From contig NZ_JJMU01000024.1 of the NCBI RefSeq assembly GCF_000757725.1, positions 62,001 to 126,000 on the forward strand: a stretch of DNA of 64,000 bases, written 5' to 3'. Both the position numbers and the translations under genes were made by a program. The notes under the pieces are model-generated. The model saw only the letters and a program-made list of their open reading frames with translations, had not been told where the DNA came from and did no database searches. Below are positions 44,263 to 54,069 of this stretch, in pieces. Numbering within the stretch: the stretch's first letter is position 1; each line of letters starts with the position of its first letter. This DNA is from Sphingobacterium deserti. GTDB lineage: Bacteria > Bacteroidota > Bacteroidia > Sphingobacteriales > Sphingobacteriaceae.

Positions 44263-44649
44263 ATGACTACACAAATCACAGCAGGTGTAAAGGTATCCGT
44301 AGACGTTGTTTATCAGCCGGAATACTCTAATCCAGAAAAGCTGCATTTTATGTTTTCATATCAGATAACGATTGAAAACTTAAGTGATTTAACCATCCAA
44401 CTTGTGAGTAGACATTGGGATATCTTCGATTCTAGCGGCGAATACAAGAGCGTAGACGGCGAAGGGGTTGTTGGCGAACAGCCTATCCTAACTCCCGGAA
44501 GTGTACACCAGTATACATCTGGATGCAACTTGAAAAGTGACATGGGTTTTATGGAGGGTTATTACGAAATGACTAAACAACTGGATGGAAGCCACTTCCT
44601 TGTGGATATACCGAGATTTAATTTGATAGCTTCCTACAAGCTCAATTAA
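44263..44649 (+). CDS. apaG: ApaG domain protein
   Basis: A 128-residue protein with the fibronectin-like ApaG fold: VYQPEYSNPEKLHFMFSYQITIEN, VQLVSRHW-like IQLVSRHWDIFDSSG, VVGEQPILTPGSVHQYTSG and MEGYYEM. Historically linked to cobalt/magnesium efflux and Ap4A metabolism, but the biochemical role is unclear. Single gene. Confidence 0.93.
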   Translation: MTTQITAGVKVSVDVVYQPEYSNPEKLHFMFSYQITIENLSDLTIQLVSRHWDIFDSSGEYKSVDGEGVVGEQPILTPGSVHQYTSGCNLKSDMGFMEGYYEMTKQLDGSHFLVDIPRFNLIASYKLN

Positions 44650-44718
44650 ATTTTTAATGCTTATGTAAATTAATGCCGCGATACCCCATACCTATCGCGA
44701 ATACCACATTTATTTGTT

Positions 44719-44726
44719 TACTTTTG
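44719..44726 (+). promoter_or_regulatory. -7 promoter element of the ABC-F transcript
   Basis: TACTTTTG matches TAnnTTTG within TTTGTTTACTTTTGTAAC, the same string type as before nadA. It predicts a leader of about 150 bases before the ABC-F start, long for this window. Confidence 0.55.
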
Positions 44727-44817
44727 TAACTGGAAAATAGCATGTTGCAAAATAGATCAAACAGCATTTACTATATCTATAATAAGACTTACGTAAAACT
44801 TTTTTATTCAAGTTTTT

Positions 44818-44880
44818 ATGAATAATAATAAGAAACTTTTACTTCGTAAAAAGCTGTTAAACAGGAAACTACATAAATAG
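44818..44880 (+). CDS. Candidate leader peptide of the ABC-F gene, 20 residues
   Basis: ATG 44818 opens a 20-codon frame, MNNNKKLLLRKKLLNRKLHK, ending in TAG at 44878-44880. The last base of the stop is the first base of the ABC-F GTG start (TAGTG). A hairpin CTTTTAC-TTC-GTAAAAG (44836-44852) and a small palindrome CTGTTAAACAG (44854-44864) lie inside it. Leader peptides that sense ribosome stalling precede several ABC-F genes in other phyla. The arrangement fits, but expression is unproven. Confidence 0.45.
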   Translation: MNNNKKLLLRKKLLNRKLHK

Positions 44881-46742
44881 TGAGCATTATATCTACAGAA
44901 CAGTTGGGTCATTCGTATAACGATAAATGGCTTTTTAAAAATCTTCATTTCGGACTTCAAAAGGGAGACCGTGTGGCACTCGTTGGCATAAACGGGACGG
45001 GCAAATCTACGTTATTAAAGATCTTAGCTGAAATTGAGAGTCCTACAGAAGGGAAGGTGGTCAAAGAGAGAGGTCTACGGGTTGGTTTTTTAAATCAAGA
45101 ACCAAATTTCGATGGTTTAAAGACCGTCAATGATTTCATCTACAGTTCCGATAACGAGCAGCAACAATTAATCAAAGAATATGAGGAGTTGCTTTCAAGC
45201 GAAGACATTGATCAAAATAAGTTAGCGGAACTTACCGACAAATTGTCCGCGTTGGAAGCCTGGGAATACGAGTATAATATTAAAACAATTTTAAATCGAT
45301 TACAGATTTCGAATTTTGAGCAAAATATAAGCGAACTATCGGGTGGGCAAAAAAAGCGATTATCGCTCGCTAAGCTTTTGATAGATGAGCCTGATGTATA
45401 CATCCTTGATGAGCCAACCAATCATTTGGATATTGAAACTATTGAGTGGCTGGAAAAGCTACTCACTACCGGCAACAAAACTGTATTGCTCGTCACGCAT
45501 GATAGGTATTTTCTGGATAACGTTTGTAATGAGATCCGCGAGTTAGATAGGGGTGAGGTTTACTTATACAAAGGAAAATATACATACTTCTTAGAGAAAA
45601 AGGCGGAGCGCGAAACTATTGATGTCGTGATGGCTGACAAGGCCCGCAATCTATTGAAAAAAGAGTTGGAGTGGATGAGGAGGCAACCGCAAGCCAGAGG
45701 TACGAAATCCAAATCTCGGATTGAGGCGTATTATGATTTAGAGGAAAAATCTAAAGGTCCGCGTAAAAACGACAGTGTGCAGCTTTCCGTAAAAGTTTCC
45801 AGACAAGGCTCTAAAATCATAGAGATCGAAAACTTATCCAAGTCGTACAATGGAAATAGTATCATCCGTAATTTCAGCTACACATTCAAAAAGGGCGATC
45901 GTATAGGACTTGCAGGAAAAAATGGAACAGGGAAATCCACTTTTCTAAATTTGATAACTGCTGAGATTAATCCAGATAGCGGCAAGGTGGACATTGGTGA
46001 GACTACAGTGTTTGGCTATTATCGACAAGGCGGATTGGAATTTAAAGACACGGACAAAGTATTAGACGTTGTCAAAAATGTAGCCGAATATATAACCATG
46101 GCTAATGGCGATACCATTACTGCTTCACAGCTCCTCACTTTGTTTCTATTTCCGCCTGAAAAGCAGTTTAACTTAATTAGTAAGCTCAGCGGTGGAGAGA
46201 AGAAGCGGTTACAGCTTATGCGCGTGTTAATGAAAAGTCCAAATTTTTTAATTTTGGATGAGCCATCAAACGATTTGGATATTGACACTTTAAATATACT
46301 GGAAGAGTTTTTAGATAATTATCCCGGCATATTAATCTTAGTGAGTCACGATCGTTACCTCATTGATAGGTTGAGCGAGCAGCTTTTCATTTTCGAAGGG
46401 GAGGGGCATATTCGAATCTACAACGGCAACTATGCAGATCATAAAGCAGAGGAGGAGATGCGACTCAAAGCGGCAAAAGAAAAAGTAGAGATGCCCGAGC
46501 CAATAGTTAGTTCAACAAAAGAAATCTCTAAGAATAAACCATCTTACAAAGAGATTAAAGAATACGAAGCTTTAGAAAGGCAGATCGAGGAACTGGAGGT
46601 AATGATATCCACTAAGGAAGCAAGTCTGACAAATTTGACAGATTATCAGCAACTCAATGACGCGGCGCTGGAAATAGGAGAACTTAAAAAATCCTTAGAT
46701 TCGAAATCAGAACGTTGGATGGAGCTCTCCGAGTTTATGTAA
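44880..46742 (+). CDS. ABC-F family ATPase (Uup-like)
   Basis: A 620-residue soluble protein with two ABC domains. First: Walker A GINGTGKST (36-44), signature LSGGQKKR, Walker B VYILDEPTNHLD. Second: GKNGTGKST, LSGGEKKR, FLILDEPSNDLD. The C-terminal coiled coil (YKEIKEYEALERQIEELEVM onward) is Uup-type. ABC-F proteins act on ribosomes, as translation factors or antibiotic-protection factors, not as transporters. The GTG start is supported because homology begins at MSIISTEQLGHSY. The second Walker B has Asn-Asp where His is more usual (DEPSNDLD). Confidence 0.92.
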   Translation: MSIISTEQLGHSYNDKWLFKNLHFGLQKGDRVALVGINGTGKSTLLKILAEIESPTEGKVVKERGLRVGFLNQEPNFDGLKTVNDFIYSSDNEQQQLIKEYEELLSSEDIDQNKLAELTDKLSALEAWEYEYNIKTILNRLQISNFEQNISELSGGQKKRLSLAKLLIDEPDVYILDEPTNHLDIETIEWLEKLLTTGNKTVLLVTHDRYFLDNVCNEIRELDRGEVYLYKGKYTYFLEKKAERETIDVVMADKARNLLKKELEWMRRQPQARGTKSKSRIEAYYDLEEKSKGPRKNDSVQLSVKVSRQGSKIIEIENLSKSYNGNSIIRNFSYTFKKGDRIGLAGKNGTGKSTFLNLITAEINPDSGKVDIGETTVFGYYRQGGLEFKDTDKVLDVVKNVAEYITMANGDTITASQLLTLFLFPPEKQFNLISKLSGGEKKRLQLMRVLMKSPNFLILDEPSNDLDIDTLNILEEFLDNYPGILILVSHDRYLIDRLSEQLFIFEGEGHIRIYNGNYADHKAEEEMRLKAAKEKVEMPEPIVSSTKEISKNKPSYKEIKEYEALERQIEELEVMISTKEASLTNLTDYQQLNDAALEIGELKKSLDSKSERWMELSEFM

Positions 46743-46751
46743 ATAAAGTAT

Positions 46752-46767
46752 AGTTTCACGTGAAACA
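46752..46767. other. parS-like centromere site 1
   Basis: AGTTTCACGTGAAACA matches the ParB-binding consensus TGTTTCACGTGAAACA at 15 of 16 positions; the inner 14 bases are a perfect palindrome. It lies 10 bases after the ABC-F stop. Confidence 0.75.
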
Positions 46768-46807
46768 TAAAATTATTATCATCGAGGTTTTTTCTCGATA
46801 TGAACAA

Positions 46808-46823
46808 TGTTCCACGTGAAATA
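46808..46823. other. parS-like centromere site 2
   Basis: TGTTCCACGTGAAATA matches TGTTNCACGTGAAACA at 15 of 16 positions. It lies 13 bases before the mnmG ATG, within its leader or promoter region. Confidence 0.65.
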
Positions 46824-46836
46824 AATAAAGGATAAC

Positions 46837-48696
46837 ATGTTTAAAAAATATAACGTAATTGTAGTAGGGGCTGGCCACGCTGGATGCGAGGCGGCGGCGG
46901 CAGCTGCAAATTTAGGTTCATCGGTTTTATTGATCACGATGAATATGGGTGTTATTGCCCAAATGAGTTGTAACCCTGCCATAGGGGGAGTGGCCAAGGG
47001 CCAAATCGTACGCGAGATCGATGCGATGGGAGGCTATACAGGAATCATTGCGGATAAATCAACCATACAATTTCGCATGCTAAATCGCTCCAAAGGCCCC
47101 GCCATGTGGAGCCCAAGAGCACAAAACGACCGCATGCGTTTTGCTGAAGAATGGAGATTAACGCTAGAATCACTCCCGAATATTGACATGTGGCAAGACA
47201 CCGTAAAGGAAGTTATTGTAGAAAATGGAAAAGCCCAAGGCGTAATAACTTCATTAGGCGTTCGGGTAGAAGCAGATGCCGTAGTTTTAACGAATGGCAC
47301 ATTCCTAAACGGCGTTATTCACATTGGCGAAAAGAAAATAGGTGGAGGACGCACTGGCGAAAAAGCAGCTACAGGCTTAACAGAACAATTGGTGAGTTTA
47401 GGATTCGAAGCTGGCCGTATGAAAACTGGTACGCCGCCACGAATAGACGGACGATCATTGAACTACACCCTGATGGAGGAACAGTGGGGCGATGAGAACC
47501 CAGGACGCTTTTCGTATACTGATGTAGAAAGACCCACCGAGAAACGCTGCTGTTGGATTACCTATACGAACGATAAAGTTCATGAGGTTTTAAAAACGGG
47601 ATTCGATCGCTCGCCGATGTTCACTGGCAGAATAAAAGGCTTGGGTCCTCGTTATTGTCCTTCCATAGAAGATAAGATAAATAGGTTTGCTGAGCGTGAT
47701 CGCCATCAAATTTTCGTAGAACCGGAAGGTTTTAAAACCGTCGAAATTTACGTAAACGGTTTTTCCACTTCATTGCCTGAAGATGTACAATTGAAAGCGT
47801 TGCAATTTATACCAGGGTTCGAGAATGCAAAAATGTACAGACCAGGGTATGCTATTGAGTACGATTATTTTCCGCCTATGCAACTTGATTTAACGTTGGA
47901 AACCCAACGTGTTAAACACCTATTTTTTGCAGGTCAAATAAATGGAACCACGGGTTATGAGGAAGCTGCCGCACAAGGTTTCGTTGCTGGTGTAAATGCG
48001 CATCAGCGTATTCGCGATGAACATGAATTAATTTTAAAAAGATCGGAATCTTACATTGGCGTATTAATTGACGACCTTGTTACGAAAGGTACAGAAGAGC
48101 CATACCGCATGTTTACCTCTCGTGCAGAGCACCGGTTGTTACTACGGCAAGACAACGCTGACATTCGTTTAACGCCAATAGCTCATAAACTCGGTTTAGT
48201 TAATGATGAACGGCTGGAAAAAGTGGATCTAAAAATAAAGCAATCTGACCATATCATTTCATACATGCGACAAAATAGCGTAGACATAGACAAAGTTAAC
48301 CCCATTTTGAGTGAACTTGGCTCGAGTGCGTTGACACAGAAATCAAGACTATTTAATATTCTAAGTCGGCCACAGGTAGGTATCCAAGATCTTGCAAAAG
48401 CAGATTCGGAATTTTCAGAACTACTAAAGTCATTCGACGAGGAAACAATTGAGCAAGCTGAAATAAAGGTGAAGTATGAAAGCTATTTCGATAAAGAAAT
48501 GGAAATCGTCAATAAGATGAAAAAGATGGAGGATAAGGAAATAAATCCAGAATTTGATTACAAATCGTTAGCCTCATTGTCTATAGAAGCACGTGAGAAA
48601 TTGCTGAAAGTAAAGCCGAGGACTTTAGGTCAAGCATCAAGAATATCGGGTGTATCACCCTCAGATATTAGTGTTTTGATGGTACATATGAGTTAA
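46837..48696 (+). CDS. mnmG: tRNA uridine-5-carboxymethylaminomethyl modification enzyme
   Basis: A 619-residue FAD enzyme: GAGHAG dinucleotide motif at 11-16, [59 protein letters not shown] and [18 protein letters not shown], then the MnmE/tRNA-binding C-terminus ([35 protein letters not shown]). With MnmE it modifies U34 of several tRNAs. In many bacteria this gene (gidA) is near the replication origin; the parS-like sites before it agree. Confidence 0.97.
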
Positions 48697-48773
48697 TATA
48701 CTGATAATCAGTTTATTAAAAAATTTAAATACTAACATTAAATGAAGCGATATAAGAGATTATTTTAAAATTT

Positions 48774-50453
48774 ATGACCAAACACTCCGAAATCATACAA
48801 AGTTCTCCTAAGGGGCTTAAAACGATAAATTTTCAATACCTCGCATTCATAGGATTTACCTTATTGCTTGTATTGACCTTTACTCGCTGTGCTAATGTTC
48901 AACGGCCGACGGGCGGACCTAAAGACTCTTTACCGCCTAAAGTATTAAACGAGTCCCCAGTAAACTTTTCGCGTAATTTCCAAGACAAGGAGATTGTGTT
49001 GACATTCGACGAGTACATCAAACTGAACAACCAATTCAAAGAATTCAGCATAAGCCCTGATTTAGATGAACAACCGCTGTTTAAGGTTAGGAAAAAAGAT
49101 CTTATTATACAGCTGCCAGATTCAATGGAAGCTAACACTACCTACACGATAAACTTCGGTAAGGGTTTGGTGGATTATAACGAAAGTAATCCCATTCTCA
49201 ACTATAATTACGTATTTGCAACAGGGCCGGAACTAGATTCCCTATCAATAAGCGGTTCTGTAAAAAATGGTTTCACCAAATCTTTCGATATCAAAAAGGA
49301 TGAAAACATTAAAGTGCTTCTTATTCCCACGCGACAAGATTCTATTTTCGGAAAGAGAAAAGCCAATATTTTTACGGGTTTAGACTCTTCAGGCAATTTC
49401 AAATTTAGTAATCTTCGGGAAGACACTTACCGCATATACGCTTTGAAAGAGCAGAATAATGATAGAATTTTCAATGGCAATGATGAATGGATTGGATTTT
49501 TAAACGATAGCATTGTATTAAGCAGGGATACTAGTAATATACAACTCGAAATCACAAAAGCGTATCCGAAGGATTTTAGAACCTTGGAAAAAAAGATCGA
49601 GCCTACCGGAAATATCTTGCTTACGTTTAATAAACCCATAAATAATCCTGAGCTTGAAATTGTTCATCCATCTGACATCAACACAAGTAAAATAGCGCGC
49701 TATAGCTTAAATAATGACTCGGTTAGGGTATTTATTCAAAATAAAGAATTGGATTCGGTGAAAATACTTCTCAGCGCAGATCAAAATATCCGTGATACTA
49801 TTCTGATCCGAACGAATAAGAACGCGAAGTATGATCGGGAAATAAAACCACTTTTTAATATCACAAATAAGGTAGATCGCACCAGTCATATTAAACTAAC
49901 AAGCGTTACACCATTAGCTAACGTGGATAAATCTAAGATTATGCTTTATGAAGACTCCGTTTCCAGACGTAATTTTCAATTGCAGCAGGACAGTGCAAAC
50001 CAAAATCTCTACCATATACGGTACAATTGGAGACCGAAGCGAAATTACGAATTAGTGATTCAGGAAAATGCATTGCGGAGTGCATTTGATGATACCAACA
50101 AAGAATCGAAAACGCAGTTTACAATGGACGAATCAGATAACTATGGGAACATCACTTTCACAGTCAATGGTCTGGATAGTACCATGCAATATATCGTAGA
50201 ATTGACCAATGAGGAAAAGGAGAAAGTGTTTGATAGCAGAATAATTGATCAGCGTAATGGGAAAATAACCTATACGAATTTTCCGGGAGGAAAGTATATG
50301 TTGCGGATTATTTATGATGCTAACAAAAATAACAAATGGGATCCAGCTGATGTTTATGCACGCAAGCAAGCGGAAAACATCTGGTACTTAGATAAAACAT
50401 TTACCATTCGCGCAAATTGGGACCAAAACGAAACGATAACCCTACCAAAATAA
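48774..50453 (+). CDS. Ig-like domain lipoprotein
   Basis: A 559-residue protein. An N-terminal hydrophobic stretch ends in a lipobox-like LTFTRC (about residue 41). Then comes RPTGGPKDSLPPKVLNESPVNFSRNF, the start of an SbsA/Big_5-type Ig-like domain (VLTFDEYIKLNN; TTYTINFGKGLVDYNE), followed by further beta-sandwich regions and a C-terminal NKNNKWDPADVYARKQAE block. This architecture is widespread in Bacteroidota outer-envelope proteins of unknown role. Its signal region is long (about 40 residues), so a later start is possible, though no ATG is near. Confidence 0.78.
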   Translation: MTKHSEIIQSSPKGLKTINFQYLAFIGFTLLLVLTFTRCANVQRPTGGPKDSLPPKVLNESPVNFSRNFQDKEIVLTFDEYIKLNNQFKEFSISPDLDEQPLFKVRKKDLIIQLPDSMEANTTYTINFGKGLVDYNESNPILNYNYVFATGPELDSLSISGSVKNGFTKSFDIKKDENIKVLLIPTRQDSIFGKRKANIFTGLDSSGNFKFSNLREDTYRIYALKEQNNDRIFNGNDEWIGFLNDSIVLSRDTSNIQLEITKAYPKDFRTLEKKIEPTGNILLTFNKPINNPELEIVHPSDINTSKIARYSLNNDSVRVFIQNKELDSVKILLSADQNIRDTILIRTNKNAKYDREIKPLFNITNKVDRTSHIKLTSVTPLANVDKSKIMLYEDSVSRRNFQLQQDSANQNLYHIRYNWRPKRNYELVIQENALRSAFDDTNKESKTQFTMDESDNYGNITFTVNGLDSTMQYIVELTNEEKEKVFDSRIIDQRNGKITYTNFPGGKYMLRIIYDANKNNKWDPADVYARKQAENIWYLDKTFTIRANWDQNETITLPK

Positions 50454-50983: not shown

Positions 50984-52576
50984 TTATAAAATTGTATCTG
51001 TTAATGAATTGGATTTCTGCGGATAATCCGTCGTATAATGTAGTCCTCGACTTTCTTTACGAAGCATAGCTGATTTGACGATCAAGTAGGCTACTTGTAT
51101 TACATTACGGAGTTCACATAGCTTGACAGACAGTTTTGTATTTTTATAAAAATCCTCCGTTTCCTCATGTAAAAACCCTAACCGGCGCATGGCACGATCC
51201 AAACGAAAATCAGATCTAACTATGCCTACATAATCACTCATTAGCTTTTGTGTTTCGCGCAAATTATGGGTAACCAAGATCTCCTCGTTTAATGATGCTA
51301 CCTTAGATTCATCCCAATCCGGAATATTGTCATCAAACGCAAGTGAATGAAGACTAGCGGCAGCATCCTCGAAAATACGATGTGCATAGACTACAGCTTC
51401 TAACAAGGAGTTTGATGCTAACCGATTTGCACCATGCAAGCCGGTAGATGAGCATTCACCACAGGCGTAAAGATGTTGTATGGATGTTTTTCCCAATTCA
51501 TCAACGAGTATACCACCGCAAGCATAATGCGCTGCCGGCGTCACTGGAATAAAGTCCTTTGTCATATCCAAACCTATGGAAAGGCACTTTTCATAAATAT
51601 TTGGAAAATGGGCTAATATGTCCGCCTTCTTACGGTGTGTGATATCCAGGTAAACAAAATCATGCCCAGACTTCTTCATTTCATTATCTATGGCACGCGC
51701 TACGATGTCGCGAGATGCCAACGAACCACGTGGATCATATTCTTCCATAAAAGATACACCATCCAACCTCCGTAAGATACCGCCGAAACCACGGACGGCT
51801 TCGGAAATTAAAAAAGCGGGAGAATCTTTCGGATTATAGAGAGAGGTCGGATGAAACTGTATAAATTCCATGTTTCTCACTTTACCTTTTGCCCGATAAA
51901 CCATGGCTATACCGTCACCGGTAGCAATGGTCGGATTTGTAGTACTGCTATAAACATGGCCAGCGCCACCAGAAGCCATCAAGGTGATCTTACTCAGAAA
52001 TGTTTCGATTGTATTTGTCTGCGTGTTCAAGGCATAAATACCGAAGCAAGTAATGTCTTTAGTTGCTTTATCCACATGAACACCTTTATGATGCTGGGTA
52101 ATGAGATCCACAGCGAAATGATGCGTTAACATTTCTATGTTAGGATGTGCGTGCACCTGCTCGAGCAAAGCCCGCTCGATCTCATAACCGGTAATATCCT
52201 TATAGTGTAAGATACGATGCTTAGAATGGCCTCCCTCACGAGCCAAGTCATAATGTTCGTCATCTACTTTATCAAAGTTGGTGCCGTAGTCAATTAACTC
52301 TTTTATGCGTGCGGGCGCTTCTTTAACAACGTTTTCCACAACTTGCGGATGGCATAAACCATCGCCAGCAACCTCAGTATCAGCGATATGCTTGTCGAAG
52401 CTATCAGACTTATCCACAACGGCGGCTACACCTCCTTGCGCATATTTGGTATTCGACTCGTCTTCGTTAGACTTGGTCAAAATCAACACTTTACCTAGAT
52501 GTGCTGCCTTCAACGCAAAGCTTAAACCAGCTATTCCCGAGCCAATAATTAAAAAATCCACCTGTCTATGTGCCAT
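50984..52576 (-). CDS. nadB: L-aspartate oxidase
   Basis: A 530-residue FAD flavoprotein: FLIIGSGIAGLSFALKAA at the N-terminus, KYAQGGVAAVVDKSDSFDKHIADT, EGGHSKHRILHYKDITGYEIE, PAHYACGGILVDELGKTSI and GANRLASNSLLEAVVYAHRI. It oxidises aspartate to iminoaspartate, which NadA condenses to quinolinate for NAD. It is divergent from nadA across a 494-base region that carries DnaA-box-like sites. Confidence 0.96.
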   Translation of the reverse strand: MAHRQVDFLIIGSGIAGLSFALKAAHLGKVLILTKSNEDESNTKYAQGGVAAVVDKSDSFDKHIADTEVAGDGLCHPQVVENVVKEAPARIKELIDYGTNFDKVDDEHYDLAREGGHSKHRILHYKDITGYEIERALLEQVHAHPNIEMLTHHFAVDLITQHHKGVHVDKATKDITCFGIYALNTQTNTIETFLSKITLMASGGAGHVYSSTTNPTIATGDGIAMVYRAKGKVRNMEFIQFHPTSLYNPKDSPAFLISEAVRGFGGILRRLDGVSFMEEYDPRGSLASRDIVARAIDNEMKKSGHDFVYLDITHRKKADILAHFPNIYEKCLSIGLDMTKDFIPVTPAAHYACGGILVDELGKTSIQHLYACGECSSTGLHGANRLASNSLLEAVVYAHRIFEDAAASLHSLAFDDNIPDWDESKVASLNEEILVTHNLRETQKLMSDYVGIVRSDFRLDRAMRRLGFLHEETEDFYKNTKLSVKLCELRNVIQVAYLIVKSAMLRKESRGLHYTTDYPQKSNSLTDTIL

Positions 52577-52609
52577 ATTGTGTTATTAACGATGCGCTGT
52601 ATCAGAATT

Positions 52610-53000
52610 AGAAGAAACAAATTAACAAAATATGTGGAAAACCTGTATAAAAACGGTGCAGTAAAATTGAAAACTTTAAAACTTTCCACAGCAGTCCTCA
52701 TATTCCCACAAATGCACCACATGAATTAAGGAAAAGTGAAGCAGATATTAACAAATTGTAAACACTAAAAATTCAACACAAAAATATGGAAAGTAAAATA
52801 GATGAAAAATCACCCATTTGAAAATCAGCACTTAACCTACCGAAGTCTGTTGATAATTTGTGGATAACTGCCGAAAACTCATGATTCAAAAATAAAAATC
52901 ACACACTTATCCCCATTTTCCACAGACTAATAAACAACAAGATTCTTTCTTTAAAAAAAGATTATAAATTATTGGAAAAAGGGAATGTGGATTTCGTTTC
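52610..53000. other. Candidate replication origin (oriC) in the nadB-nadA gap
   Basis: AT-rich region with 9-mers like the DnaA box TTATCCACA. Perfect: 52859-52867 (minus orientation). One mismatch: 52633-52641, 52848-52856, 52907-52915 and 52916-52924. Two mismatches: 52682-52690 and 52986-52994. Two of the stronger sites are nearly head-to-tail at 52848-52867 and two abut at 52907-52924 in the opposite orientation. An A/T-only-like tract (52940-52980) beside them could be the unwinding element. Assignment is inference; see findings. Confidence 0.55.
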
Positions 53001-53012
53001 ATTTTCTTTGTT

Positions 53013-53020
53013 TACTTTTG
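53013..53020 (+). promoter_or_regulatory. -7 promoter element of nadA
   Basis: TACTTTTG matches TAnnTTTG; predicted leader about 44 bases to the ATG at 53071. Confidence 0.55.
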
Positions 53021-53070
53021 TCTTGTCGTTTAGTCAAACCAAGTGGACAAATTGAAGAGAAGAAAAGATA

Positions 53071-54069
53071 ATGAATACAACCTTTGAAAGAGATTTGGAG
53101 GCAAAGGGTTATATTGATGAGCCTGTAGACCCTACGATCGATATTGTAGCTGAAATTCAGCGGCTTAAGAAAGAAAAGAATGCGGTTATATTGGCTCATT
53201 ACTACCAAGATGCTGAAATTCAGGATATTGCAGACTACATTGGGGATAGTCTAGGTTTGTCGCAGCAAGCGGCAAAAACTGATGCTGATATGATCGTATT
53301 TGCTGGTGTGCACTTCATGGCGGAAACAGCTAAGATTCTATCGCCTTCAAAAAAAGTTTTATTGCCCGATCTCAAAGCAGGCTGCTCTTTGTCGGACAGC
53401 TGTCCTCCGCATCTGTTCGCAAAATTCAAAGAGCAGTATCCAGATCATCTCGTGATCACATACGTGAACTGTACGGCGGAGCTTAAGGCACTTTCCGACA
53501 TTGTATGTACTTCCAGCAATGCCGTGGAGATTGTGCAGAGTTTGCCTGCCGATCAAAAAATTATTTTTGGTCCTGATAAAAACCTTGGTGACTATGTGAA
53601 GAAGAAAACCGGACGTGATTTGGTTCTTTGGAATGGCGCTTGTATGGTGCATGAGATATTTTCGCAGGATAAGATTATAGATTTGCGTAGTCAATTTCCA
53701 GACGCGAAATTTATCGCACATCCGGAGTGTGAAGATCATATACTTGCACAAGCAGATTATGTAGGATCGACCTCAGGAATGCTTAAGTATACGATAGAGA
53801 ATAGTGCACAACAGTTTATAGTGGCTACAGAATCAGGTATCTTGCACCAAATGCAAAAAGCAAGTCCGACAAAAACTTTTATTCCGGCACCTCCAAACAA
53901 TGTTTGTGCATGCAACGACTGCCCACACATGAAATTAAATACATTAGAGAAATTATATAACTGCCTTTATTACGAGCTTCCGGAGGTCGATCTCCCGACA
54001 AGTGTGATCGAACGAGCTAGAAAGCCGATCGAAAGGATGTTGGAAATTTCAGAACGATTCGGATTGTAG
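53071..54069 (+). CDS. nadA: Quinolinate synthase
   Basis: A 332-residue iron-sulfur enzyme: [40 protein letters not shown], and cysteines for the 4Fe-4S cluster in [17 protein letters not shown] and [13 protein letters not shown]. It makes quinolinate from iminoaspartate and dihydroxyacetone phosphate. Pairs functionally with the divergent nadB. Confidence 0.97.

Follow-up and report, generated by a model that had tools for sequence, protein, structure and literature searches.

A DnaA-box cluster between nadB and nadA as the probable chromosomal replication origin of Sphingobacterium deserti

The 494-bp intergenic region between the divergently transcribed nadB and nadA genes of Sphingobacterium deserti is identified here, with high confidence, as the chromosomal origin of replication (oriC) of this bacterium and its relatives. 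It is understood as an element of known kind and very probably as an ordinary one in an unexpected place: dnaA, often the marker of an origin, is not its neighbour. The assignment draws on a conserved cluster of DnaA boxes, a switch of strand asymmetry located to ∼10 kb, the direction of 16S genes and a pair of parS-like sites. The window, that is, the whole 64,000-nucleotide stretch analysed, corresponds to positions 62,001-126,000 of contig C24 (318,693 bp) in a draft genome (G000; 75 contigs, 4.6 Mb). Its NadA is 87% identical to that of S. faecale and 92% to that of S. gobiense, both of them among the closest named relatives. A preliminary description of the window had already interpreted the gap as oriC, and both the skew in relatives and the conservation of the boxes support that interpretation. 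The relevant features, in window coordinates, are the following.

46752..46767, + strand, parS-like site between an ABC-F gene and gidA, 1 mismatch
46808..46823, + strand, parS-like site in the same intergenic region, 1 mismatch
46837..48696, + strand, presumably gidA/mnmG, the name being recognised from the sequence
50984..52576, - strand, nadB (L-aspartate oxidase)
52068..52076, + strand, perfect DnaA box within the nadB coding sequence, at nt 501
52332..52340, + strand, DnaA box TTTTCCACA inside nadB
52410..52418, + strand, perfect DnaA box within the nadB coding sequence, at nt 159
52577..53070, no strand, divergent nadB-nadA intergenic region, 494 bp, proposed oriC
52633..52641, - strand, DnaA box TTTTCCACA, 1 mismatch (motif scan and gap alignment)
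52848..52856, - strand, DnaA box TTATCAACA, 1 mismatch (motif scan and gap alignment)
52859..52867, - strand, DnaA box TTATCCACA, perfect (motif scan and gap alignment)
52907..52915, + strand, DnaA box TTATCCCCA, 1 mismatch, C at position 7
52916..52924, + strand, DnaA box TTTTCCACA, 1 mismatch, directly abutting the preceding box
52926..52985, no strand, proposed DNA unwinding element, least stable 60 bp within the gap
52927..52944, + strand, conserved tract CTAATAAACAACAAGATT, degenerate DnaA-trio candidate, 2 bp past the tandem boxes
53071..54069, + strand, nadA (quinolinate synthase)

One perfect box (52859-52867) and four 8/9 matches had been counted in the 494-bp gap by the preliminary description, and the motif scan returned the same set of one perfect and four one-mismatch boxes. 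Such a cluster exceeds chance: among 2000 dinucleotide shuffles of the gap the mean number of boxes with up to one mismatch was 0.18 and the maximum 3, so that none reached the 5 of the gap. The 64-kb window contains three perfect boxes only (52068, 52410 and 52859), all inside 800 bp. Given 64 perfect matches in the whole of G000 compared to 57 for the reversed control motif, the box motif is without general enrichment in the genome; the nadB-nadA site is the sole place in G000 with three perfect boxes inside 800 bp (genome list read by eye, 1-kb criterion). The homologous site of G028, a single-contig relative, has four perfect boxes inside 800 bp, and the one other such place in that genome is a 175-bp direct repeat. 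This repeat occurs four times (G028:C1:5,097,861-5,098,394), 64 kb away from the origin and with a perfect DnaA box in every copy, and is perhaps a DnaA-titrating site. Across 18 Sphingobacterium gaps, 79 box matches at up to one mismatch were counted, where 1000 permuted motifs average 3.1; none of these motifs reached 79, and the highest-scoring of them are overlapping words. The 15 exact boxes in these gaps were equalled by 3 of the 1000. Enrichment is weaker in gaps from other genera (n = 12), with 14 matches against a mean of 2.2 and 4 of 1000 permuted motifs equalling that count.

Conservation of the boxes in close relatives, named earlier as a check on the oriC reading, was found throughout the genus gaps with the nadB-nadA arrangement. 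The nadA survey covered 36 genus genomes including G000, of which 30 gave the locus and 6 none; 22 of these loci have a divergent nadB beside nadA, and 8 (L024-L031) have no nadB in the 1.5-kb flank. With two named loci added to the 22, at least three boxes are present in all 24 gaps that have a divergent nadB, L020 and L032 being nearly identical within this set. Alignment of 26 gaps (3 from other genera; L009 and the second G033 copy left out) gives a common order of two box pairs, then CTAATAAACAAYAAGATT, then an A/T tract with the end TTATTGAAAA, and the TGTGGA core of the box at 52633..52641 is seen in 22 of the 26. Exact CTAATAAACAAYAAGATT occurs in 20 of 40 genus genomes, once per genome, and lies at most 0.5 kb upstream of nadA in each of the 18 for which the nadA position is known; at two mismatches it yields scattered extra sites, as does the reversed control. 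The origin features are thus conserved in relatives within the genus, and the boxes are weaker in most Pedobacter gaps. The A/T-dense tract described beside the boxes was recovered as the least stable 60 bp of the gap, 52926-52985, adjoining the box cluster and predicted to be an unwinding tract. That the gap would also be the least stable DNA of the entire window is ruled out, 472 of 63,940 60-bp segments being less stable than the gap minimum.

Relatives were used for chromosome-wide skew because G000 is a draft. In G028 (5,170,823 bp, NadA 97% identical), sampled in 71 pieces that make up 1.41 of 5.17 Mb (27%), GC skew is positive in all 32 pieces between 0 and 2.36 Mb and negative in 38 of 39 pieces from 2.45 to 5.17 Mb, the remaining piece being at 0.0. 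The cumulative skew has its maximum near 2.4 Mb, roughly opposite the gap, and its minimum in the last piece, 5.160-5.171 Mb; the homologous gap is at 5.1624-5.1629 Mb. The strand asymmetry of this chromosome therefore switches within ∼10 kb of the gap, which is where the preliminary description had suggested to look for the chromosome-wide minimum. In the window itself the coarse minimum is nearer 44 kb than 53 kb, and the local skew change alone would thus not place the origin in the gap. The 16S genes of eight single-contig relatives, counted by hand and with the terminus assumed opposite the gap, are transcribed away from the gap in 39 of 40 cases, the sole exception being one of the two 16S genes in G004; a search of the draft G000 found no 16S gene.

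Examined finely, the skew has a minimum in the gap and another, 8-9 kb away, at the equivalent of window position 44.2 kb. An origin at this second, divergent point, between an rsmI-like gene and an ABC-F gene, is considered very unlikely, even though its minimum is deeper than that of the gap in G028 (record position 336) and in reordered G000 (C24 106,279), comes a close second in G006 and G033, and is accompanied by very A/T-rich stretches at 44.1-44.8 kb. In G006 (80 kb read) the gap minimum is the deepest, with -1688 at 2,795,579 compared to -1629 at the second minimum, and so it is in G033 (40 kb read), with -644 at 2,143,551 compared to -633. Moreover, a single one-mismatch box (44601) and no cluster is present inside 0.5 kb of the 44.2-kb point, and four + strand ORFs extend from 44263 to 50453, whose coding bias could create a second minimum. 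Skew thus resolves the origin to ∼10 kb, and within that span the gap is singled out by the box cluster.

The parS-like sites reported ∼6 kb from the gap are indeed there, as two one-mismatch sites at 46752-46767 and 46808-46823. Of 9 genomes, 6 (G000, G006, G012, G016, G026 and G028) have two such sites 6-9 kb from nadA, and G033 has one in that range; a search near nadA at up to one mismatch gave none in G004 and G029. Further one-mismatch sites are present elsewhere in 6 of the 9 genomes, two apiece in G004 and G012 and one apiece in G016, G026, G028 and G033. The parS reading is taken exclusively from the two one-mismatch sites and not from matches at three mismatches, of which there are 5 compared to 0.8 expected.

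It is highly improbable that the gap is instead a two-way promoter for nadB and nadA, with regulator sites that resemble DnaA boxes or with DnaA as the transcription regulator. A conserved promoter-like end just before nadA would suit such a function, but the chromosome-wide skew switch and the 16S direction centre near the gap, a box cluster is present upstream of nadA in many Chitinophagales that have no nadB neighbour, and in G016, a member of the L024-L031 clade, the box/A-T block stays beside nadB with ∼2.8 kb between tract and nadA. In five further members of this clade the tract, matched at two mismatches, precedes nadA by 2.4-3.1 kb. The additional 2.8 kb in G016 (L161 13,720-16,862) contains no ORF of 100 aa, and an RNA gene was rejected for it, there being no Rfam match at gathering score.

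In Escherichia coli, oriC is an intergenic box cluster by an A/T-rich unwinding tract, away from dnaA and with gidA, a common neighbour of oriC, nearby. The nadB-nadA gap resembles it in the box cluster with A/T tract, in the proximity of gidA and in the distance from dnaA; it differs in that the immediate neighbours are nadB and nadA, gidA being ∼4 kb off. By analogy with known oriC biology, the gap as origin would support DnaA binding, melting, helicase loading and segregation. DnaA would bind the two box pairs, 52848/52859 on one strand and 52907/52916 abutting on the other, with assistance from box 52633 and perhaps from the boxes inside nadB. From the abutting pair it would extend across the CTAATA... 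tract, upon which the A/T-rich 52926-52985 would melt, helicases would be loaded and forks would depart in both directions. The new origins would then be segregated by ParB acting at the parS sites 6 kb off. A C at position 7 is a mark of weak ATP-DnaA boxes (PMC8235120), and TTATCCCCA could by this feature make the DnaA step depend on DnaA-ATP.

The basal unwinding system of Bacillus subtilis consists of two boxes, a spacer and DnaA-trios (PMC8287927). The gap likewise has two abutting boxes, a short spacer, a triplet-like conserved tract and A/T-rich DNA, with the differences that the Sphingobacterium trio tract is degenerate, its strand reading is ambiguous and the origin is not beside dnaA. 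The tandem boxes are inside the mismatch limits given in that text at 23 of 23 Sphingobacterium sites. A NAN run of at least three within 16 bp of the box is found at 23 of 23 sites in one strand reading and at 6 of 23 in the other, compared to 0.39 and 0.17 for shuffled 40-mers, the polarity being ambiguous and the count using Sphingobacterium rows only, several Pedobacter/Chitinophagales rows being mis-anchored. Because shuffled DNA often passes the trio test and the strand readings differ, the trio status of the tract is that of a candidate only. In the same phylum, the oriC of Cytophaga hutchinsonii has been used on plasmids (Xu et al. 2012, as cited in PMC5891637). DoriC and Ori-Finder compute origins from skew, boxes, indicator genes and trios, according to PMC6323995 and PMC10225481; these are the kinds of evidence used for the gap as well, and DoriC may already list the site in complete Sphingobacterium genomes. 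The search of published papers gave among the matches listed no title or abstract start on a Sphingobacterium origin, and found no paper joining oriC with nadA/quinolinate synthase or oriC and DnaA box with Sphingobacterium. A plasmid collection searched for nadA/nadB returned scattered matches only. If it is the origin, the gap, whose anatomy is described at the sequence level, offers a ready basis for constructing origin plasmids for environmental Bacteroidota.

Box clusters were scored at 61 loci from other families. In 23 of these (22 with a score of at least 3) one cluster ranks best and begins 100-700 bp upstream of nadA, and 10 more are low-score ties, 5 of the 61 being not fully judgeable since they start within 700 bp of nadA. 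The remaining loci, including many Saprospiraceae and Bacteroidales, are without a best cluster upstream of nadA. Several of 13 other-family nadA upstream regions inspected have near boxes followed by CTAATAGTAGTGGG or GTAATAATAATAG, and CTAATAGTAGTGGG-like tracts occur upstream of nadA in several Chitinophagales loci. Chitinophaga sp. YR573 (G060; contig of 4.83 Mb, 20 pieces and the nadA locus sampled) has negative skew in 13 of 13 pieces left of nadA and positive skew in 6 of 7 to the right, and its dnaA lies 0.84 Mb left of nadA, within the negative arm; the skew switch is at the box cluster upstream of nadA, not at dnaA. Chitinophaga sp. E66 (20 pieces and the nadA locus) gave a noisier curve that dips to almost the same depth at 5.42 and at 5.73 Mb; nadA lies between the dips at 5.62 Mb, and dnaA is at 0.11 Mb.

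An origin adjoining dnaA, as in many bacteria, has a next to negligible probability: all eight single-contig relatives have dnaA (identified by DnaA-domain match) within 4.8-12.5 kb of nadA (3 of the distances span the record end, the record taken as circular), so that chromosome-wide skew alone cannot separate the two there, and the region upstream of dnaA holds three boxes, one of them perfect, in 2 of the 4 Pedobacter loci examined, but the 351-600 bp upstream of dnaA in six Sphingobacterium genomes hold one or two one-mismatch boxes and no perfect one, neither fine skew minimum of G006 and G033 is at dnaA, and G060 is without a skew switch at that gene.

Together, the nadB genes of 19 hand-chosen genomes (several genera) contain 24 perfect boxes, compared to 4.6 expected from 200 synonymous shuffles (maximum 11). 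All but two of the 24 fall at nt 147-159 or 492-501, and 3 of the 19 genes are without a perfect box. The excess was matched by 0 of 600 permuted motifs; inflated as it is by shared ancestry, it is no more than suggestive. Most Pedobacter and Mucilaginibacter gaps are poor in DnaA boxes. In most of the aligned gaps of these two genera, Olivibacter and Parapedobacter, the places of the boxes are taken by TTACTAACA, TTGCCAACA and similar words, and TTRCYAACA-like words replace the core boxes in most Pedobacter/Mucilaginibacter gaps (L037-L047). Coevolution of DnaA with the drifted Pedobacter boxes was considered and, as far as the recognition helix is concerned, rejected, the helix GGRDHSTV being identical in 14 of 14 Sphingobacteriaceae DnaAs (loci L248-L254 included); 16 DnaAs were aligned in all, and the 2 from Chitinophaga have GGRDHTTV. 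We put forward, as a tentative proposal that we hold to be possible rather than probable, that nadA, not dnaA, is the gene to which the origin is linked across Sphingobacteriales and in much of Chitinophagales, and that this origin reaches into nadB with boxes kept through selection on synonymous positions. The gap boxes of Pedobacter and Mucilaginibacter would have drifted to the TTRCYAACA-like words under an identical DnaA helix, so that nadB-internal boxes or an altered use of weak boxes would carry initiation there.

The absence of dnaA from the window, remarked upon before, is explained by its location at C24 232,885, beyond the window end (C24 126,000) and ∼118 kb from nadA. The segments of C24 follow the order A(inverted)-B-C-D, where G028 has A-C-B-D. 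Within C24 128.8-230.7 kb there are parts that correspond to G028 27-70 kb, with a break just upstream of dnaA, and nothing in the 271 kb of G028 used for comparison matches the part at 133-194 kb. The rearranged block covers C24 128,300-232,400, past the window end; C24 is free of N, and the junctions are without repeat in the sequence examined. In its large part (193.8-230.7 kb, -12.1 per kb, between flanks of +27.4 and +15.0) the moved block still has the sign of skew that belongs to its former arm, the small piece at 128.8-133.5 kb has +29.5 per kb, and C24 carries two skew minima as a result of the moved block. The arrangement fits a recent event that parted dnaA and the gap, and it may be a misassembly; we infer that the origin stayed put as dnaA was parted from it. 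A strain with dnaA and oriC ∼100 kb apart would represent a natural test of whether linkage matters. If the gap is the origin, taking dnaA as origin misplaces it by 5-13 kb in the relatives, 118 kb in G000 and ∼0.8 Mb in the Chitinophaga sampled, with effect on read-depth growth-rate estimates and strand-bias studies. In five Sphingobacterium genomes the box TTTTCCACA precedes dnaA by 272-273 bp (C24 ∼232,612, 273 bp; L117-L120 and L245), where it may serve autoregulation.
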